Positions 23,676 through 48,209 of a stretch of DNA of 64,000 nt are shown one piece after another (positions within the stretch are counted from its first letter, which is position 1; the number at the start of each line of letters is the position of its first letter). The stretch comes from an uncultured Acidobacteriia bacterium (GTDB lineage Bacteria > Acidobacteriota > Terriglobia > Bryobacterales > Bryobacteraceae): positions 1-64,000 of the forward strand of contig CAIYVZ010000153.1 in assembly GCA_903929755.1 (NCBI GenBank), read 5' to 3'. The notes below the pieces were generated by a model, which saw nothing but the letters and a program-made list of their open reading frames with translations, was not told the origin of the DNA and searched no databases. The translations under genes and the position numbers were made by a program.

Positions 23676-24063
23676 CTAGGGCAGAGCGAAAGCGATGACG
23701 CTGTCGCCCGGTTTCCGGTCGTAGTAACCACCGCCGGTGGCGACGATCAGGACGTATTGCTTGCCGTCTTTACCCTGATACGTAATGGGCGAGGCATATC
23801 CGCCCGCCTCCAGTTGCGTTTCCCAGACCACTTTCCCTGTCTTCGCCTCAAATGCGCGGAAACGACGGTCATTGGTGGCGGCGATAAAGACGAGACCGCC
23901 AGCGGTGGAAACCGAGCCACCCATGTTCATGGTCCCGGCTTTGCGGGACGGGGCGCTCTTCCACATCGTAGAGCGGCTTGCCGGTCCGGCGATCGAGGAT
24001 GAAGACCAGGCCTGTCTTAGAAGTCAGGGCGAGGGCCGGGATCTTCGCCCCCAGCTTTCGGTT
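23676..24063 (-). pseudogene. Relic of a PQQ-dependent (glucose-type) dehydrogenase, core deleted
   Basis: The minus strand encodes KIPALALTSKTGLVFILDRR followed by TGKPLYDVEERPVPQS, a mid-protein block of membrane-type quinoprotein dehydrogenases. Around 23940 it shifts frame to GTMNMGGSVSTAGGLVFI, then FRAFEAKTGKVVWE and the C-terminal GKQYVLIVATGGGYYDR, ending at a stop codon at 23676. In intact relatives a segment of some 200 or more residues separates these blocks, and a long N-terminal half precedes them. This is therefore an internally deleted, frameshifted fragment. The neighbouring peptidase gene begins 30 bp away. Confidence 0.82.
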
Positions 24064-33866: not shown

Positions 33867-36800
33867 TCAGAACGTTAACTTCAGGGAAGCCTGCAGGATT
33901 CTTGGGTCACCCGCAGACGTAATCTGGCCGAAATTGGCCGACGAAATGTTCGTCACCGGAGCATTGAAATTCGGGTGGTTGAAGAGGTTGAATGCTTCTG
34001 CCCGTACGTGGAGCGTCAGGCGTTCCCGCAGCTTGAATTCGCGGCTGAGCGCAAGGTCGATATCGACATAGCCCGGCGCGCGGAGGCTGTTGTGACCGGC
34101 ATTGCCATAGGTGCCGGCCAGGTTCGCGGTGAAGAGCCCCGGGTTGAGGTACTGGTAAAGCTTGCCATGGGCATTGCCGGTGTAGGCGGTGGCGGAAATA
34201 ACGTTGGGGCGGTCGTTCCCCACCGCCGTGAGCGAATTGTCCTTGCCTGCAAGAGGGTTCACCGCCAGGCCGCTTTGGTAGCGAACCAGCGGGGCAAGGT
34301 TCCAGTGGCTCAGCAGGGCGGACGGCAGGCGACCGTGCCCAAACTGGCTCACGTAGACGGAACTCAGATTGAAAAGGTGTTTGGCGTCATAAGAGCACGG
34401 GCCATAGTCGCCGCGAATATTGTTGGGATCCTGAACCACGCCGCCGCCAAGCGACGTTACCGGGGCAATGCCCAGACATTTCGACCAGGTATAGTTGGCC
34501 AGCACAGTGTAGTTATGAGCAAAGCGATGTTCCACGGAGGTCAGCATCCCGTTGTAGTTCGCGCTGATCCCGTCGTTCGCCACCACCATAGTGGAGTAGT
34601 ACTGGCCCGCGACCGGATTCGCCAGCGAGAGAACGCGCCTGGCCTGCGTGTTGCTGGTGCTGGAACATGCCTTGCCGGCACAGGTACCGGGGATGTAAAC
34701 TGCCGGATTCGTCTCATTGCCAATCCAGAGATGCGCGGTCTTGTTTCCCAGATAGGTCAGCGAGAAGACCCAGCTATCGGCAAAGCGGTGCTGCAGACTG
34801 GCGTTCCAAGTGATGACGTTTGGCGGTTTCACATTCGGAGGCAGGAAGACTTCGGCATTCGCCAGGGGGAACGCGATGTCCTTACCCGGGGGCGGGAGGG
34901 GGAAGGGATTGCCGCCCGGAACCGTGCTCCAGGGATTGCTGAACTGATAGGGACCGTTGGTATTCGTCACCTGCGGTCCGAAGGGAGGGTTCTGCGCAAC
35001 CATGCGGTAGGGAACAAATGTCGCCACGGAGTCGTAGAGCAAAGCACCGCCGGCCCGAATTGTTGTTTCCCCCTTGCCGTCGGGGTTATAGACGAAGCCC
35101 AGGCGTGGCGAGAAATCGGCGAGACGCCTGGAGGTAAAGGAATTCGGCACGCCGGGGTCTCCGTAGAATAAGGAACCGACCGGTGCCTTCACATAAACCT
35201 TGCTCACCTGGCCGGCGTCAAAGGCCGCCCGTGAGAAGGTGCTGCCGCGATTGAAGTGATCGTATTCGGGCAACATAGGTTCCCACCGAAGTCCGACATT
35301 CAGCACCATTCGCTGCGTTACATGAAAGGTGTCCTGCACGTACAGGCCGAAGACATTCTGGCGTAAATCGTTCAACTGGGGCCCGCTCTGGCTGAAGGAA
35401 TTCATCTTGCCTGCAAGGAAATCCAGCAGCGGATCGTTGCTGTAGAGGCCTGAGAAGTTGAAGACGCCGTTATCCTGGTAATGGTTGTTCTGGGTATCGC
35501 GAGTGCGGAGAACATCCACGCCAAAGGCAATCTGGTGTTTGCCGCGAATAATATCCACGTCGTCGGCTTCCTGAAAGCTGGTGATATTGAAGCTGCCAAG
35601 AGCGCAGGTGCCACAGCCGATGGAGAAGCCACCGTTGCTCACGGCAACCTGCATAAAATTCTTCGTCCCCTGATAGAGGTTCGGAACTCCGAGCGACGCC
35701 ACGGTGACGCCGGCGTCATTGGGACCGCGATCATCACGTCTCCGCCCTACCGTGAAGTGGAAGGAATTCACGGTTGAGGGATTGATCGTGAAAGTGTGGC
35801 CGAGCACGAACGTCTGAGCGCGCTCTGAATTGCCGGAGGCGGAGGTCACCAGGATGTCGTGCGGATCAAAGAAAGCAGCCAGCTTGTAGGTGTCCATGAA
35901 GTAGCGACCGTAGAGTGACTGCCGGGGGCTAATGATCCAGTCAACGCGTGAGACGTACTGTGATTCGTTCGATTGCACCGGGATCCCGTAGGAAGCCTTG
36001 CCGCACGAATCGGTATTGGTCGGCAGGTATTTGGCGAGCGCCACGGCGGCGGGGTCGAAGCGGCTGATCGCCATTTTTTGGCCCGGCAGCGCCTGCCCCG
36101 TCGTTGGATCGAGAATTGCGCGGGCGACACCTTTCGACTGGCAAGTGGGGCCGTCCAGCACGCTGAAGTCTCCCTGCAGGGCGGCTGCGGTTGGCACAAA
36201 AGCCGTGCTGGACGAAGGGTCCTGCCGAATATTGGACTGCTGGAACCCTCCGAAGAAGAACAGTCTGTCGCGAATAATCCGACCGCCAACAGTGCCGCCG
36301 AACTGGTTGCGTTTCAGGCTGTCCTGGCGGGGAGCGAAGTAGTTAATGGCGTTGGCATTGCCGTTGCGGATGAACTCAAACAGACTGCCGTGGAGGGAAT
36401 TTGTGCCGGACTTGGTGACGGCATTCACAACGCCGCCGGGATGCAACCCGTTGCGCGCCGGCAGTGTACTGGTCTCCACGCTGAACTCCTGCAGGGCATC
36501 AGGGAACGGAAAAGGCATGTTTACGTTGGTGAAGCTGTCGTTGTTGTCTCCACCGTCCAGAAGATAGTTGGTGGCGTTACCGGCGCTGCCCGCGATGGAG
36601 ATGGATTGGGAACTGAAGAAGCTCTTGCTGCCGGTATTTGTCCCGTCACTGTGGTTGATGGAGGCCCCGGAGATGGTGATGAGCTGGGTGGCGTCACGGC
36701 CGTTGAGGGGCAGGTCCACGATTCGCTGCTGATCCACCACCTGGGAGATGCTGCTTTGCTGCGTTTGAATCACCGCCGCATTCGCTTGGACTTCCACGCG

Positions 36801-37169
36801 TTCCGAGAGGGAACCCACTTTCATCCCGATATTAATCTGGAGCGCATCCCCAACGCGCAGCTGAATGCCACTCTGGACGTAGGTTTGGAAGCCGCTAAAG
36901 GTCGCTTCCAACGTATACGCCCCGATGGGGATATTGGTGATGGTATAGAGCCCATCGCTGTTGCTGGCTGCCGTATAGACCACGCCGGTATCTGTTCCGG
37001 TTACCCGTATCCGGGCGCCGACAATAGTGGCAGCCTGGTCATCAGCCACCCGGCCGGAAACCGATGCGATCGAGACAGCCTGGCCATAGAGCAACGGGCA
37101 GACTGCCAGGAAGGCGGCAGCGGCAACGAAGGCGACGAGACGGGGGGTGCGGGATGTTTTTACGTGCAT
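33867..37169 (-). CDS. TonB-dependent receptor with carboxypeptidase-regulatory domain (second of three)
   Basis: A 1100-residue Oar-like receptor. A signal peptide (about 9-30, VAFVAAAAFLAVCPLLYGQ) precedes SVSGRVADDQAATIVGARIR (carboxypeptidase-regulatory sandwich). The plug follows, with VVDQQRIVDLPLNGRDATQL, then a barrel that ends in LKLTF. The DLPLNGR motif is typical of acidobacterial receptors of this kind. It lies upstream of the cytochrome/DUF1553-DUF1501 pair on the same strand, suggesting import of products released by that pair. The ligand is unknown. Confidence 0.92.
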   Translation of the reverse strand: MHVKTSRTPRLVAFVAAAAFLAVCPLLYGQAVSIASVSGRVADDQAATIVGARIRVTGTDTGVVYTAASNSDGLYTITNIPIGAYTLEATFSGFQTYVQSGIQLRVGDALQINIGMKVGSLSERVEVQANAAVIQTQQSSISQVVDQQRIVDLPLNGRDATQLITISGASINHSDGTNTGSKSFFSSQSISIAGSAGNATNYLLDGGDNNDSFTNVNMPFPFPDALQEFSVETSTLPARNGLHPGGVVNAVTKSGTNSLHGSLFEFIRNGNANAINYFAPRQDSLKRNQFGGTVGGRIIRDRLFFFGGFQQSNIRQDPSSSTAFVPTAAALQGDFSVLDGPTCQSKGVARAILDPTTGQALPGQKMAISRFDPAAVALAKYLPTNTDSCGKASYGIPVQSNESQYVSRVDWIISPRQSLYGRYFMDTYKLAAFFDPHDILVTSASGNSERAQTFVLGHTFTINPSTVNSFHFTVGRRRDDRGPNDAGVTVASLGVPNLYQGTKNFMQVAVSNGGFSIGCGTCALGSFNITSFQEADDVDIIRGKHQIAFGVDVLRTRDTQNNHYQDNGVFNFSGLYSNDPLLDFLAGKMNSFSQSGPQLNDLRQNVFGLYVQDTFHVTQRMVLNVGLRWEPMLPEYDHFNRGSTFSRAAFDAGQVSKVYVKAPVGSLFYGDPGVPNSFTSRRLADFSPRLGFVYNPDGKGETTIRAGGALLYDSVATFVPYRMVAQNPPFGPQVTNTNGPYQFSNPWSTVPGGNPFPLPPPGKDIAFPLANAEVFLPPNVKPPNVITWNASLQHRFADSWVFSLTYLGNKTAHLWIGNETNPAVYIPGTCAGKACSSTSNTQARRVLSLANPVAGQYYSTMVVANDGISANYNGMLTSVEHRFAHNYTVLANYTWSKCLGIAPVTSLGGGVVQDPNNIRGDYGPCSYDAKHLFNLSSVYVSQFGHGRLPSALLSHWNLAPLVRYQSGLAVNPLAGKDNSLTAVGNDRPNVISATAYTGNAHGKLYQYLNPGLFTANLAGTYGNAGHNSLRAPGYVDIDLALSREFKLRERLTLHVRAEAFNLFNHPNFNAPVTNISSANFGQITSAGDPRILQASLKLTF

Positions 37170-41249: not shown

Positions 41250-41978
41250 ATGCGACTTCCGGCTACCTTCCGGAGACTCATCCTTCTCACGATCGCCTGC
41301 GCTTCAGTTACCTTCGCGCAGCAGGGTGAACGTCTCTACAAGTTTCACTGCGCTTTCTGTCACGGCAAAGGTGACGACGGGATGGCCGCCAATCTGGTGT
41401 CACCCAAACTCCCCCACGCCCCTTCTGATGCCGCACTCATCAACATCATCAAGAACGGCATCCCTGGCAGCGATATGCCTGCCTCGCTCGGCATGACCGA
41501 CGCGGAGATCCGCCAGGTGGCCACTTATGTTCGCGCCCTGGGCCGGTCGGCCCCGCAAAAGGTTCCAGGCGACGCCACGAAAGGGCAGGCGGCGTTTGAT
41601 AAATCCTGCCGCAGCTGCCACATGGCGAAAGGCAACGGCGGCGTTATGGGCCCGGATCTTTCCGATATCGGCCTCCGCCGCAGTCCGACAAATCTGAAGA
41701 ATTCCATTGTGGAGCCCGATGCCAACATCGTCGCAGGCTGGTCCGGCGTCACCGTAAAGACCAAAGACGGCAAATCGGTGCGCGGCATCAAGCTCAATGA
41801 AGACATGCTGACCATCCATGTCCGCACCGCCGATGGCAAAATCCAGTCGATAGCCAAGAGCCAGACGGCAAGCATCGAACGTGCCGGAGCAAAATCGACC
41901 ATGCCTTCCTTCAAACAGCTGCCTGCGGCCGACCTGGACAATGTAATCGCCTATCTGTTTACCCTTCGCGGAGAATAG
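41250..41978 (+). CDS. Exported diheme c-type cytochrome
   Basis: A 242-residue periplasmic cytochrome with a signal peptide (about 9-24). An N-terminal monoheme domain has CAFCH (34-38) and a Met ligand candidate in SDMPASLG. A second domain has CRSCH (120-124) and resembles the planctomycete-type heme-binding module (ITVRTKDGK-like strand VTVKTKDGKSVRGIKLNED). It is encoded 6 bp before the PQQ dehydrogenase, so it is very probably that enzyme's electron acceptor. The start at 41250 is chosen because the upstream part of the open frame lies in the divergent gamma-glutamyltransferase gene. Confidence 0.9.
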   Translation: MRLPATFRRLILLTIACASVTFAQQGERLYKFHCAFCHGKGDDGMAANLVSPKLPHAPSDAALINIIKNGIPGSDMPASLGMTDAEIRQVATYVRALGRSAPQKVPGDATKGQAAFDKSCRSCHMAKGNGGVMGPDLSDIGLRRSPTNLKNSIVEPDANIVAGWSGVTVKTKDGKSVRGIKLNEDMLTIHVRTADGKIQSIAKSQTASIERAGAKSTMPSFKQLPAADLDNVIAYLFTLRGE

Positions 41979-41984
41979 CCACCC

Positions 41985-43571
41985 ATGAAAATCCTTAAGA
42001 CCTCTCTCATTTTCGCGGGCGCATGCTTTGCCCACATTGCCCTTTATGCCCAGGCCCCCGGTACAGACTGGATCAACTACCAGGGCAATGTGGAGGGCTT
42101 TCGCTTCTCGCCCCTCACGCAGGTAACAAAGGCCAACGCCGGACGCCTGCAGCCGCTGTGGTCCTATCAGATTGACCACACGGACAAGTTTGAAGCCTCG
42201 CCCATCGTGCGCGGCGGCATCATGTACATCAGCGAACCGCCCAGCGATGTAACGGCGCTGGAAACCAGGTCGGGCAAGGTGCTTTGGAAGTACCGCCGCG
42301 TTTACCCCGACAATATCCCCACCTGCTGCGGGCGCGTGAATCGCGGCGTAGCGATCCTGGGCGACCGGATCTATATCGGCACCCTGGACGCGCACCTGGT
42401 AGCCCTCGACGCCTCCTCCGGCAACGTGGTTTGGGACGTGGAAGTCGCCGATTTCCACAAAGGCTACACCTCAACCGCCGCGCCCATGATCGTGAAAGAC
42501 AAAGTGATCATCGGGTCGGCCGGTGGCGAGTTTGGCGTGCGCGGCTACCTGGCCGCTTATGACGCGAAAACCGGCAAACAGGCCTGGCGCTTCTGGACCG
42601 TACCGAACGCGGGCGAACCGGGTTCCGAGACCTGGACAGGCCAGAGCCTAAAGACGGGCTCGGCAACCACCTGGGTAACCGGATCATACGATCCGGCCCT
42701 GAACACGCTCTACTGGGGTACCGGAAACCCGGGGCCCGACTGGAAGGGAACCTCGCGCCTTGGCGACAACCTCTATTCCGATTCCCTGATCGCGCTCGAT
42801 GCCGATACCGGCAAACTGAAATGGCATTTCCAGTTCACCCCGCACGACGTTCTGGATCTGGACGCCACGCAGACCCCGATTCTGGTGGACGCCAACTGGA
42901 AGGGCAAGCCCCGCAAGCTCCTCCTGTTCGCCAACCGGAACTGCTTCTACTATGTTCTGGACCGGACAACCGGCGAATATCTTCTGGGCAAGGAGTACGT
43001 CCGCCAGACATGGGCCGAACCGAATCTGAGCGACAAGGGCAAGGCCACCTGGAGGCCGAATACCCAGCCCACCGAGCAGGGCACAGTGGTGTACCCGAAC
43101 TCGCCCGGTGCCACCAACTATCAGGCACCCGCCTACAGCCCCAACACCAAACTCCACTATGTGATGACCCGCGATGAGGGTGGCGTCTTCTACTCCGGCG
43201 ACGATACTTACAAGGCGGGCAGCTGGTTCCTGGCCGGACGCTTCGTCTCGAAGCCGGGCGAGGAAGCCACCGGCGGCGTGAAAGCCATGGACCCCATGAC
43301 CGGCACCCCGAAATGGACGTTTGAGACAGGGCCCTCCTGGTCCGGCGTTCTCGCTACCGGAGGAGGCCTGGTCTTCACCGCCATGGCCGACGGCGACATG
43401 ATCGCGCTCGATGACTCGACCGGCAAGCTGCTCTGGCGTTATCCCATGGGCGGAAAAGTGAACGCCGACCCCATCAGCTACATCGGAGCGGACGGCAAAC
43501 AGCAGATCGCCATCGCCAGCGGTCACGCGATTTTCGCGTTCGGCCTTCGGGATACGCCGCCCATTAATTAA
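41985..43571 (+). CDS. PQQ-dependent alcohol dehydrogenase, possibly lanthanide-type
   Basis: A 528-residue eight-bladed propeller enzyme with a signal peptide (1-22). It has the adjacent-cysteine pair in PTCCGRVN (C114-C115), metal ligands likely at Glu182 (GGEFGVRG) and Asn248 (GTGNPGPD), and the catalytic Asp291 in TPHDVLDLDA. Asp293, two residues on, gives the D-x-D pattern that marks lanthanide-dependent XoxF/PedH-like enzymes; calcium enzymes usually have a small residue there. Substrate could be an alcohol or aldehyde and is not predictable. It forms an operon with the cytochrome c gene and is closed by a strong terminator. Confidence 0.9.
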   Translation: MKILKTSLIFAGACFAHIALYAQAPGTDWINYQGNVEGFRFSPLTQVTKANAGRLQPLWSYQIDHTDKFEASPIVRGGIMYISEPPSDVTALETRSGKVLWKYRRVYPDNIPTCCGRVNRGVAILGDRIYIGTLDAHLVALDASSGNVVWDVEVADFHKGYTSTAAPMIVKDKVIIGSAGGEFGVRGYLAAYDAKTGKQAWRFWTVPNAGEPGSETWTGQSLKTGSATTWVTGSYDPALNTLYWGTGNPGPDWKGTSRLGDNLYSDSLIALDADTGKLKWHFQFTPHDVLDLDATQTPILVDANWKGKPRKLLLFANRNCFYYVLDRTTGEYLLGKEYVRQTWAEPNLSDKGKATWRPNTQPTEQGTVVYPNSPGATNYQAPAYSPNTKLHYVMTRDEGGVFYSGDDTYKAGSWFLAGRFVSKPGEEATGGVKAMDPMTGTPKWTFETGPSWSGVLATGGGLVFTAMADGDMIALDDSTGKLLWRYPMGGKVNADPISYIGADGKQQIAIASGHAIFAFGLRDTPPIN

Positions 43572-43597: not shown

Positions 43598-43637
43598 AAA
43601 TGCAAAACCCCGCCCCCCAGGGCGGGGTTTTGCATTT
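43598..43637 (+). terminator. Rho-independent terminator of the PQQ dehydrogenase operon
   Basis: Perfect 18-bp inverted repeat (AAATGCAAAACCCCGCCC, 43598-43615, and its complement, 43620-43637) with a CCCA loop and a T-rich 3' arm. It is 26 bp past the stop codon. Confidence 0.92.
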
Positions 43638-44654: not shown

Positions 44655-47600
44655 ATGGTCCACAAAATTGCGCTTCTGGGTATTTTGATCGCTGCATCTT
44701 GCTACGCCCAGTTTTCCGGACGCCTGACCGGCACAGTTGTAGATGCCTCCGGAGCCCCGGTACCCGAAGCCGACATCGCGCTGCAATTGCCCGGCAGTGA
44801 AAAAGCTCTGCTCACCACCACGACCTCTGCCGATGGAACCTGGCACCTCGCCGGAGTCCGCCCAGCGGCCTATGATCTGACCGCCCAGGCCAAAGCCTTC
44901 GTAAAAACCACACTTCACAACCTGCCCGTGGATGCCGCCCGCGAAACCGCCGTACCCACCATCACCCTGCAACTCCCCGCCGTTGCCCAATCTATTGACG
45001 TGGAAGGCTCGGCGGAAACCGTCCAGACCGGCAACGCCGAGATCTCCAGCACCATCACCACTGCGGAAGTTCAAAAACTGCCCATCGCCGACCGTGATCC
45101 CCTGGCACTGATCCAAACCCAGGCGGGCGTCGTCTACAACGGCAACTCCGGCACCGTCATCAACGGCATGCGGACCTCTTTCGCCAACGTCACGCTCGAC
45201 GGCATCAACATCCAGGACAACTACATCCGCGACAACGCGCTGGATTACTCCCCCAACCGCCCCCTGCTCGGCCAGGTCCGGCAGGTGACCCTCGTCACCT
45301 CAAACTCCAACGCCGCCGCCCCCGGAGGCTCCGCGCAGGTCGCCATGGAAACGCCCTCGGGGACAAACACCATCCACGCGACGGCCTTCTGGTTCAACCG
45401 GAATTCCCATTTCGCTGCCAACGACTGGTTCAACAATCAATCGGGCGTGGAACGCTCCCGGCTCAATCAAAATCAGGCAGGCGTTTCGGTCGGCGGCCCC
45501 ATTCAGAAAGACAAGCTGTTCTTTTTTGCCAACTACGAAGCCGTCCGCACCAACCAGCAGGCCCCCGCCACCAATACCGTGCTCACCCCCGACGCCCGGT
45601 CCGGAATCTTCACCTACCGGGACACCGGCGGCGGAACCCGCAAAGTGAATCTCCTCACGCTGCGCAATGCCTCCATCGACCCCTACGTGCAGAACCTGCT
45701 CGGCCAACTGCCCCAAACCATCAATAGCTTCGACACCGGCGACAGCACTTCCGCCCTGCTGCGCAACACCGCAGGCTACCGCTTCAACCAGCGCAGCAAC
45801 GAGACTCGCGACAACATCACCGCGCGCGGCGATTACAATTTGTCCGTCAAAAACGTCTTCAGCGGCTCTTACATCTGGAATCGCGACAACACCGACGTCG
45901 CCGACCACACCTTCGCGGTAATTCCGAAAGAAGCCAATCCCAACCACAGCCACTTCGCCTCACTCGGCTGGCGCTGGACGCCCACCGCCTCGCTCACCAA
46001 CGAAATGCGCGGGGGCTTCAACCTGGCCCCGGGCGATTTCACCACTTCTCAAAAATTCGGCCCCTTCCTCGCCACCGGCTTCGCGTTCACTGATCCCGTC
46101 GATGAATCTCTCCCGCAAGGCCGCGCCACCAATACCTATGCCCTCAGCGACAACGCCGCATGGCAGCGTGGAAAGCACTACCTCCAGTTCGGCTTCCACA
46201 TGCAGAAAATCCGGGTTCGCGCCTACAACGCCGCCGGGACTCTCCCCACCTATACGGTCGGCATGGGTACGGGCCAGAGTGCCATTGTCCGCGCAGACCT
46301 GCCAGGCAGCCGTGGCTCCGACGTCACCGCCGCCAATAATCTGCTGGCATCCCTGGCCGGTTTCGTCGATTCCTACGCCCAAACCTTCAACATCACCAAC
46401 CGAACTTCCGGCTTCGTCAACGGCGCGCCCGAGACCCGCAACTTCCGCCTCGACGAGTACGACATCTATCTCCAGGACAACTGGAAACCCCTCCGGAACG
46501 TGACCCTGACCCTCGGCGTGCGCTGGAATCTGCCCGGTGTTGCCGATGAGACCGATTCGCTGGGTCTCCTCCCGATCCTGAAGAACAACGACCCCGTCCA
46601 GACCCTGCTCTCCAACTCAACCCTCGGTTTTGCCGGAGCCTCCGCCGGGCGACCCTGGTACAAGAGACCGCGCAAGGATTTTGCCCCGAATGTGGGCCTC
46701 GCCTGGGATCCGTTCGGCAAGGGCAAGACGGCCTTCCGCGCCGGCTACTCCATTAACTTTGTTAACGACCAGGCGCTGGCCGCGCCCAAGACCATTCTTG
46801 GAATCAACTCCGGTTTAAGCGCTGTTTCGTCCAAAAGCGGGCTCACAGGGCGGCTCTCCGCCAGCCTGCCCGCTGTGGTCACGCCCGTCTACCAGATGCC
46901 GATCACCGCCGCCGATAACTATGCCCTGAATTCCTTTAACGCCGTCGGCACCATGGCCCCCAACCTCCGAACACCCTATGTGCAGCAGTATTCGGCGGGC
47001 ATTCAGCAGGAGTTTCTCCACACCGTGTTTGAGGCCAGATTCGTTGGCAACCACATGGTGCAGGGCTTCCGCACCTTCGACTACAACCAGGTGAACATCC
47101 GCAGCAACGGCTTCCTGGCCGACTTCCTGCGAGCCCAAAACAACGGCTATCTGGCGCAGGCACGCAACGGAACTTTCAACCCGGCATACAACGCCGCTAT
47201 CCCTGGCAGCCAGCCGCTGCCAGTTTTCGCGCAATTGAAGAATGGCGGCTCGCTCAACACGGGCACCGTGAGGAATCTTTTGCAGTCCGGCGAACCCGGC
47301 GCGCTGGCGGCAACCTACGCGGAAAACGGGACCAACGGCACCGTGGCCTTCTTCGCCAACCCCTACGCCCTGGGTGCTGACATGCTGACCAATTACTCGA
47401 ATTCCAGCTACAATTCCCTTCAAGTGGAAGCCCGCCACCGCTCACGCGCGGGCTTCGATTTCACCGTAAATTACACGTTTTCGAAGGTGCTGTCCGATAC
47501 AGCCGGCGATACCCAGAGCCGCATCGAGCACTTCCTCGACAGCGCCAATCCCGGGCTGGAACGCTCGCGAGCCAACTTCGATCTCAACCATTCTTTCAAG

Positions 47601-48209
47601 GCGTCCGGCGTCTATGAACTGCCCTTCGGCCGCGGGCACCGCCTGAATCTGGCGCACGTGGACCGTGCAATCTCAGGCTGGAGCCTGGGCACCATCGCCT
47701 CCTGGCAGTCCGGCGCCCCGTTTTCCATCCTCTCGTCGCGTGGCACGCTGAACCGGGCCGATGGCTCCCGTTCGTACTACAACACCGCAAATACGGCCCT
47801 CAACGGAAGCCAGCTCAGCAACGTGGTGAACTTTCAGATGACCGGTAATGGTCCTTATATCGTGCCCCAATCGGCCATCAATCCTGGTGATGGTTCCGGC
47901 GTGAATGCGGACGGCTCGGCCAACTTCACGGGCCAGCTTTTTAACAATCCGACTGCGGGAACTCTGGGCGCACTGCAACGCCGCTACTTCTCCGGACCCA
48001 CGTCGTTCAACTACGACATCAGCCTGCAGAAGAGCGTGAAAGTGACCGAGCACCAGTCAGTCGAAATCCGCATGGACGCCCTGAATGTCTTCAACCACCC
48101 CACATTCTGGGTAGGCGACCAGGACATCAATTCCACCACTTTCGGCGCGCTCGCCAGCACGCTGAACCTGCCCCGCGTGGTACAGTTCGGGCTGAAGTAC
48201 CAGTTTTAA
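44655..48209 (+). CDS. TonB-dependent receptor with carboxypeptidase-regulatory domain (third of three)
   Basis: An 1184-residue Oar-like outer-membrane receptor. The signal peptide (1-19, ALLGILIAASCYAQ) is followed by FSGRLTGTVVDASGAPVPEA and a regulatory sandwich to about 110. The plug (IADRDPLALIQTQAGVVYNG and GMRTSFANVTLDGINI, about 155-190) and a barrel ending RVVQFGLKYQF complete it. The ligand is unknown. It heads a group of three plus-strand genes: two small coupled genes begin 6 bp and 206 bp after its stop and may be expressed from the same message. Confidence 0.92.
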   Translation: MVHKIALLGILIAASCYAQFSGRLTGTVVDASGAPVPEADIALQLPGSEKALLTTTTSADGTWHLAGVRPAAYDLTAQAKAFVKTTLHNLPVDAARETAVPTITLQLPAVAQSIDVEGSAETVQTGNAEISSTITTAEVQKLPIADRDPLALIQTQAGVVYNGNSGTVINGMRTSFANVTLDGINIQDNYIRDNALDYSPNRPLLGQVRQVTLVTSNSNAAAPGGSAQVAMETPSGTNTIHATAFWFNRNSHFAANDWFNNQSGVERSRLNQNQAGVSVGGPIQKDKLFFFANYEAVRTNQQAPATNTVLTPDARSGIFTYRDTGGGTRKVNLLTLRNASIDPYVQNLLGQLPQTINSFDTGDSTSALLRNTAGYRFNQRSNETRDNITARGDYNLSVKNVFSGSYIWNRDNTDVADHTFAVIPKEANPNHSHFASLGWRWTPTASLTNEMRGGFNLAPGDFTTSQKFGPFLATGFAFTDPVDESLPQGRATNTYALSDNAAWQRGKHYLQFGFHMQKIRVRAYNAAGTLPTYTVGMGTGQSAIVRADLPGSRGSDVTAANNLLASLAGFVDSYAQTFNITNRTSGFVNGAPETRNFRLDEYDIYLQDNWKPLRNVTLTLGVRWNLPGVADETDSLGLLPILKNNDPVQTLLSNSTLGFAGASAGRPWYKRPRKDFAPNVGLAWDPFGKGKTAFRAGYSINFVNDQALAAPKTILGINSGLSAVSSKSGLTGRLSASLPAVVTPVYQMPITAADNYALNSFNAVGTMAPNLRTPYVQQYSAGIQQEFLHTVFEARFVGNHMVQGFRTFDYNQVNIRSNGFLADFLRAQNNGYLAQARNGTFNPAYNAAIPGSQPLPVFAQLKNGGSLNTGTVRNLLQSGEPGALAATYAENGTNGTVAFFANPYALGADMLTNYSNSSYNSLQVEARHRSRAGFDFTVNYTFSKVLSDTAGDTQSRIEHFLDSANPGLERSRANFDLNHSFKASGVYELPFGRGHRLNLAHVDRAISGWSLGTIASWQSGAPFSILSSRGTLNRADGSRSYYNTANTALNGSQLSNVVNFQMTGNGPYIVPQSAINPGDGSGVNADGSANFTGQLFNNPTAGTLGALQRRYFSGPTSFNYDISLQKSVKVTEHQSVEIRMDALNVFNHPTFWVGDQDINSTTFGALASTLNLPRVVQFGLKYQF

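Follow-up and report, generated by a model that had tools for sequence, protein, structure and literature searches.

Gene organization of the locus

The window, i.e. the whole stretch of 64,000 nucleotides that was analysed, lies on contig C153 of a 6.86-Mb draft genome (212 contigs, 97.9% complete). It contains a cytochrome gene followed by a dehydrogenase gene, with 6 bp between the stop codon of the former and the ATG of the latter (Table 1). The closest named relatives are metagenome genomes labelled Terriglobia and Bryobacterales. The N-termini of both proteins are signal-peptide-like, suggesting that both would be secreted. A hairpin with a T-rich tail lies 3' of the dehydrogenase gene, and the scan found three terminator-like sites in the region against a shuffle mean of 2.8, i.e. 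no excess.

Table 1. Coordinates of the genes and predicted functional features in the window
Feature	Coordinates	Strand	Evidence
Dihaem cytochrome c, 242 aa, two CxxCH (CAFCH, CRSCH)	41250..41978	+	ORF from ATG 41250 to stop
PQQ-dependent dehydrogenase, methanol/ethanol family (TIGR03075), 528 aa	41985..43571	+	ORF, profiles, predicted fold
Cys114-Cys115 codons, adjacent cysteine pair	42324..42329	+	CC in 72/79 relatives (best 80 of 332 stretches)
Glu182 codon, predicted metal ligand (XoxF Glu172)	42528..42530	+	Alignment to 4mae, relatives
Asn248 codon, predicted metal ligand (XoxF Asn256)	42726..42728	+	Alignment to 4mae, relatives
Asp291 codon, predicted catalytic base (XoxF Asp299)	42855..42857	+	HMMER alignment, relatives
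Asp293 codon, second Asp of D-x-D (XoxF Asp301, PedH Asp325)	42861..42863	+	HMMER alignment, relatives, paralogues
Terminator-like hairpin, T-rich tail, 3' of dehydrogenase	43612..43628	+	Scan

The Pfam names of five neighbour genes gave no hint of the substrate. Two large outer-membrane β-barrel proteins, each with an N-terminal carboxypeptidase regulatory-like domain, flank the region (33867-37169, minus strand; 44655-48209, plus strand). A 96-residue frame at 23676-23966 (minus strand), adjoining a gene read as site-2-protease-like, matched only the C-terminal part of the quinoprotein; by eye it resembles the end of a Gcd-like protein, and it may be a gene remnant. Among the first 30 relatives' loci listed, a gamma-glutamyltransferase gene was kept beside the gene pair in L089, whose main genes matched the window locus at 81-93%, and in L090, and weak receptor matches were found in several. 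In L103 the gamma-glutamyltransferase is distant (33%) and in the opposite orientation; that of L092 is partial and sits at a different place in the locus.

Family and predicted fold of the dehydrogenase

The dehydrogenase passed the NCBIfam model TIGR03075 with 522.4 bits (cut-off 480.05), matched the Pfam families PF01011 (PQQ) and PF13360 (PQQ_2), and has no CxxCH motif of its own. Its top solved relatives in HMMER searches were PedH (6zcv/6zcw) and the quinohaemoprotein alcohol dehydrogenase (ADH) 1kv9, at 330-333 bits. An AlphaFold2 model built from 43 alignment rows (pLDDT 89.9, pTM 0.89; mean of 92 for block 291-300) adopted the 8-bladed-propeller fold of quinoprotein dehydrogenases. 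Foldseek matched the model to 6zcw with an E value of 2.8e-55 and a TMq of 0.91, and structural comparison (VIA) superimposed it on 6zcw (Z of 51.9, rmsd of 1.8 over 501 residues) and 1kv9 (Z of 51.0, rmsd of 2.0 over 498 residues). Since PedH 6zcw, XoxF 6dam and ADH-II 1kv9 lie within one Z unit of each other, calcium and lanthanide enzymes cannot be told apart from the predicted fold.

Residues at the predicted metal site

We compared the dehydrogenase with solved chains and with relatives at 79 loci; these come from the 80 top-ranking stretches out of 332 confirmed and include several from one genome. The first-pass annotation had placed a catalytic Asp at residue 291 and another Asp two residues later, as in XoxF and PedH, and both residues are indeed Asp (HDVLDLDATQ). 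In HMMER alignments they lay opposite the D-x-D of XoxF 4mae (WDYDG) and PedH 6zcv/6zcw (WDFDG), and opposite the D-x-T of ADH-II 1kv9 and 1yiq. The check that the annotation had proposed, alignment to solved XoxF, MxaF and PedH, placed D293 in the metal-site column. Other solved chains carried D-x-D (XoxF 6oc5 and 6dam), D-x-A (MxaF 4tqo and 1g72) or, as read from alignments among the sorbose-type enzymes themselves rather than to the window dehydrogenase, D-x-E (4mh1, 22vi, 9m2c, 7wmd and 4cvb).

The surrounding residues were also conserved. E182, which takes the place of a metal ligand of XoxF (Glu172), was invariant in all 79 relatives (best 80 of 332 stretches), as were N248, D291, D293, R318, R120 and W217. 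E70, R120, W217, R318 and N378, which correspond to the positions facing PQQ in known enzymes, were invariant or nearly so among the same relatives. Gly181 agrees with both XoxF and PedH, while Pro251, shared with PedH, 1kv9 and 79/79 relatives (best 80 of 332), differs from Thr259 in XoxF. Judged by its residues, the predicted site is as good for a lanthanide as that of PedH. In a review (PMC11845868), roles are proposed for XoxF Gly171, Asn256 and Thr259, and the second Asp, shown as a ligand of the metal in crystal structures of XoxF and PedH, is termed a signature.

The cytochrome partner

The cytochrome matched the N-terminal CBB3-type cytochrome domain and cytochrome c in Pfam, and its C-terminal half exceeded the cut-off of the putative haem-binding domain TIGR02603 in NCBIfam. 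With 27.1 bits against a cut-off of 147.8, it failed TIGR03872, which models MoxG. A cytochrome homologue was located directly upstream on the same strand, with no more than 200 bp separating the matched stretches, in 67 of the 79 relatives (best 80 of 332 stretches). A chance pairing of the two genes is ruled out by this homologous arrangement. The dihaem cytochrome gene 6 bp upstream, described in the first-pass annotation, thus held up as an intact reading frame with two CxxCH motifs and as a conserved partner in relatives. Among the same relatives, the homologue was downstream in 8/79, all from Opitutae/Opitutaceae (L142, L144-L147, L150, L158 and L164, of which the three sampled formed one tree group), and was not found in 4/79.

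The pairwise identities of the dehydrogenases and cytochromes were strongly correlated (r of 0.82, compared to a maximum of 0.12 in 1000 permutations; 69 of 76 pairs, seven having been dropped because the matched stretch ran through a stop), although shared genome ancestry inflates this value. Quartets of paralogues within one genome are the better control: in assemblies with at least two pairs, all 43 informative quartets, counted only at a dehydrogenase identity difference of at least 0.10, kept the same pairing. The nearest neighbours of dehydrogenase and cytochrome agreed in 51 of the 69 pairs and differed in 18. The two genes are a real unit and co-evolve. In the own genome, CxxCH was in frame in 25 of 56 quinoprotein rows, adjacent in 15 and absent from both places in 16, the last number perhaps being overcounted, as some loci are short. 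A relative on a Sinorhizobium fredii plasmid typed as conjugative (L172, 3338-5521, plus strand; 45.7% identity, D-W-D) has a CxxCH stretch fused at its N-terminus; transfer between phyla would be our guess.

Distribution of the D-x-D motif and phylogenetic position

A search of the own genome with the dehydrogenase gave 66 matches at E <= 1e-5. Some of these represent parts of a single gene, and they collapsed to 56 distinct reading frames including the window dehydrogenase. All 54 paralogues spanning the site carried D-x-D, the 55th being a 115-residue fragment without it. Only 17 of the 54 had both E and N in the other two ligand columns, five of these with the Cys pair as well, and 37 carried D-x-D without that combination; these ligand calls in distant paralogues come from one MAFFT alignment. 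E. coli Gcd reads DMD at the aligned place, although in the other ligand columns it does not match the dehydrogenase, which scored 199.5 bits on the Gcd family model (cut-off 832.65).

Because D-x-D occurs in 54/54 paralogues and in Gcd, the motif is non-discriminating among the sequences examined, and the rare-earth inference drawn from it is weak. The first-pass annotation had treated D-x-D beside a cytochrome as a pointer to a rare-earth enzyme; as a specific pointer it found no support, given also that the tree groups the dehydrogenase with neither XoxF nor PedH and that the cytochrome is not MoxG-like. We regard rare-earth use, at least of a facultative kind, as possible but somewhat short of likely. 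Counting by the motif alone may overestimate rare-earth metabolism, since it persists in paralogues with other ligands replaced and in members of the so-called empty group described below. According to a passage of PMC10409515, Methylopila PedE, which has Ser in place of the extra Asp, kept 50-80% of its activity when 10 mM lanthanides were added, a range given as 60-80% in the discussion of that paper.

We built a tree of 97 rows (54 own paralogues, 10 references including one PedH row, 32 of the 79 relatives and the window dehydrogenase) by a quick search with SH-aLRT support, rooted at the midpoint with no outside root. The dehydrogenase fell in a mainly acidobacterial group (support of 96) that also contained rows from Opitutae and the protein encoded on the Sinorhizobium plasmid. 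PedH, ADH-II, XoxF and MxaF formed a separate group (support of 93), and Gcd and the sorbose-type enzyme also stood apart from the dehydrogenase. Membership in XoxF was rejected on the basis of Pro251 in place of Thr259, the tree position and the cytochrome, and membership in PedH on the basis of the tree, with its one PedH row.

Large sets of such proteins have been described in this phylum. PMC11996626 reports unusually many D-x-D proteins in three Acidobacteria and fifteen UBA9145 genomes, up to 70 per genome and counted as lanthanide enzymes by that survey, as well as many putative lanthanide sorbose dehydrogenases, mostly from Acidobacteria and Gammaproteobacteria. A table in PMC3174227 lists 26 "glucose dehydrogenase" genes for Solibacter usitatus versus none in the comparison column, and we infer that these are quinoproteins. 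Passages elsewhere report XoxF3 proper in Acidobacteria, including the group 3 Solibacteres (PMC10875860), and the use of a Solibacter alcohol dehydrogenase gene as an outgroup (PMC3579938). Our literature search for a PQQ-dependent dehydrogenase in Bryobacter or Acidobacteriota found no paper.

Supply of PQQ

We searched the genome for PQQ biosynthesis and uptake genes with profiles and an E. coli query. PqqC was not found by profile search. PqqE reached 94 bits at best (cut-off 381), and PqqB 35 bits at best (cut-off 245), with no positive control over the cut-off for the latter. The genome therefore holds at least 54 distinct quinoprotein paralogues with PqqC not found and PqqB and PqqE below cut-off. 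The PqqC model, searched in 297 genomes of the phylum with G401 and G397 not among them, exceeded its cut-off in 14; within the family it did so in 6 of 101 genomes. Among nine genomes searched for PqqE, the model was over cut-off in exactly the same six family genomes, indicating that both models work in this family, and in none of the three with close dehydrogenase orthologues. Of 40 other genomes searched, three contained such orthologues (at least 74% identity).

TIGR03075 was over cut-off in 68/101 family genomes; at E <= 0.001 it was matched in 92/101, but also in 9/14 controls, none of which was over cut-off. Given 68 genomes with TIGR03075 and six with PqqC, at least 62/101 have the dehydrogenase model over cut-off without PqqC over cut-off. 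The E. coli PqqU query gave one partial match of 33 bits in the genome and no convincing PqqU. PMC12124388 reports PqqU within Acidobacteria only from the class Vicinamibacteria and suggests that Acidobacteria and Bacteroidota without PqqU may make PQQ or rely on PQQ in the soil. The organism presumably scavenges PQQ rather than making it.

Proposed function and alternative explanations

Considering these data together, we think it likely that the two genes constitute a small operon whose products oxidise an alcohol or aldehyde in the periplasm, using PQQ that is scavenged and a metal that is either a lanthanide or calcium/magnesium. The dehydrogenase would bind PQQ and coordinate a single metal ion through E182, N248, D291 and D293, and D291 would be the base that aids hydride movement from the substrate to PQQ. 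Reduced PQQ would then pass its electrons singly to the dihaem cytochrome c, which would feed them into the respiratory chain. PQQ would probably be taken from the surroundings and not be self-made. Several points weigh against this explanation: the apparent lack of both PQQ synthesis and a clear PqqU leaves the cofactor supply unexplained, the genome is a draft, the neighbouring genes suggest no substrate, the nearest neighbours of the two proteins differ in 18 of 69 pairs, and the dehydrogenase scored 494.6 bits on the model of a sister group, TIGR04528, named "acido-empty-quinoprotein" (group A) by NCBI curators, although this is below the cut-off of 650.

The last of these raises the alternative that the protein is itself empty, i.e. 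that it binds no PQQ and uses another cofactor or has a binding role. The PQQ genes below cut-off or not found here, the scarcity of PqqC in the family (6/101 genomes, compared to 68/101 for TIGR03075) and the three of ten paralogues submitted to NCBIfam that passed TIGR04528 (L028, L030 and L031) are consistent with it. However, these three lack the Cys pair and carry Ser, Asp and Ser in place of Glu182, with D-x-D retained, whereas the window dehydrogenase has both the Cys pair and Glu182 and scores over the cut-off of TIGR03075 but under that of TIGR04528. Since the PQQ-facing positions are also invariant or nearly so among its relatives, we consider the alternative distinctly unlikely. The name suggests that the NCBI curators noticed missing PQQ; our literature search on TIGR04528 found no paper.

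Within the proposed operon, two readings of the metal compete. A lanthanide enzyme like PedH/ExaF, with D293 as an extra bidentate ligand and La, Ce or Nd as the working metal, is a serious possibility, though we stop short of calling it probable. E182, N248, D291, D293 and Gly181 are all as in PedH and XoxF 4mae, PedH is the top structural match, and the second Asp is a crystallographic metal ligand of XoxF and PedH (PMC11845868). On the other hand, D-x-D also occurs in every paralogue covering the site, even where Glu or Asn is replaced, and in Gcd; the tree position lies outside the XoxF/MxaF/PedH/ADH-II group; the cytochrome is not MoxG-like; and XoxF Thr259 is replaced by Pro251, though PedH has Pro too. 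The same ubiquity of D-x-D (Gcd, 54/54 paralogues and 79/79 relatives from the best 80 of 332 stretches) would also fit an enzyme that uses calcium or magnesium, with D-x-D as the ancestral condition of the superfamily, as in Gcd, and the second Asp lost in the familiar calcium alcohol dehydrogenases; we consider this reading possible but less than likely. The only solved chains that deviate in the alignments are MxaF, ADH-II and the sorbose-type enzymes, and PMC11996626 states that Gcd is able to form complexes with Ca, Mg, Zn and Sr. However, the authors of PMC11996626 also propose there that Gcd is facultatively lanthanide-dependent. Moreover, Gcd is distant from the dehydrogenase by its model score and differs in the other ligand columns, and an ancestral D-x-D is a supposition with a tree that has no outside root.

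A broader proposal is that the acidobacterial D-x-D quinoproteins, with dozens per genome in bacteria where PQQ synthesis genes were not found, form a large set of putative lanthanide enzymes running on PQQ from neighbours, taken up by an importer that is not the E. coli-type PqqU. We consider it unlikely, but if true, one enzyme would require two scavenged cofactors, and these bacteria would have to scavenge the rare metal as well as the PQQ.

Comparison with known systems

The closest known system is PedH/ExaF (6zcw, 6zcv), which shares the fold, the ligands E, N, D and D, the Gly before Glu and the CC pair. The identity in the structural alignment is nevertheless 39%, the Trp before the catalytic Asp of PedH is Leu here, and the window dehydrogenase is paired with a dihaem cytochrome gene of its own lying upstream. 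XoxF (4mae, 6oc5, 6dam) has the same D-x-D, Glu, Asn and Gly171 equivalent, but differs in Thr259, which is Pro here, and in its partner, as the cytochrome here is not MoxG-like. MoxJ (TIGR03870) had no match in the genome, and no control genome gave a match either.

Known type II quinohaemoprotein ADHs have a haem domain fused at the C-terminus and use cytochrome c as acceptor, as is proposed for the enzyme here. One of them, 1kv9, is about as close to the window dehydrogenase as PedH in bits and Z, but these enzymes (1kv9, 1yiq) have D-x-T instead of D-x-D, and the haem domain here is encoded by a separate upstream gene instead of a C-terminal fusion. The TIGR04528 proteins are of the same superfamily and genome and have D-x-D, and L030 and L031 also have an upstream dihaem gene; membership of the window dehydrogenase in that group was rejected at its score of 494.6 bits, and it differs in keeping CC and Glu182. 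The pair is a further member of a familiar quinoprotein type, from a phylum whose large D-x-D sets have already been published as putative lanthanide enzymes.
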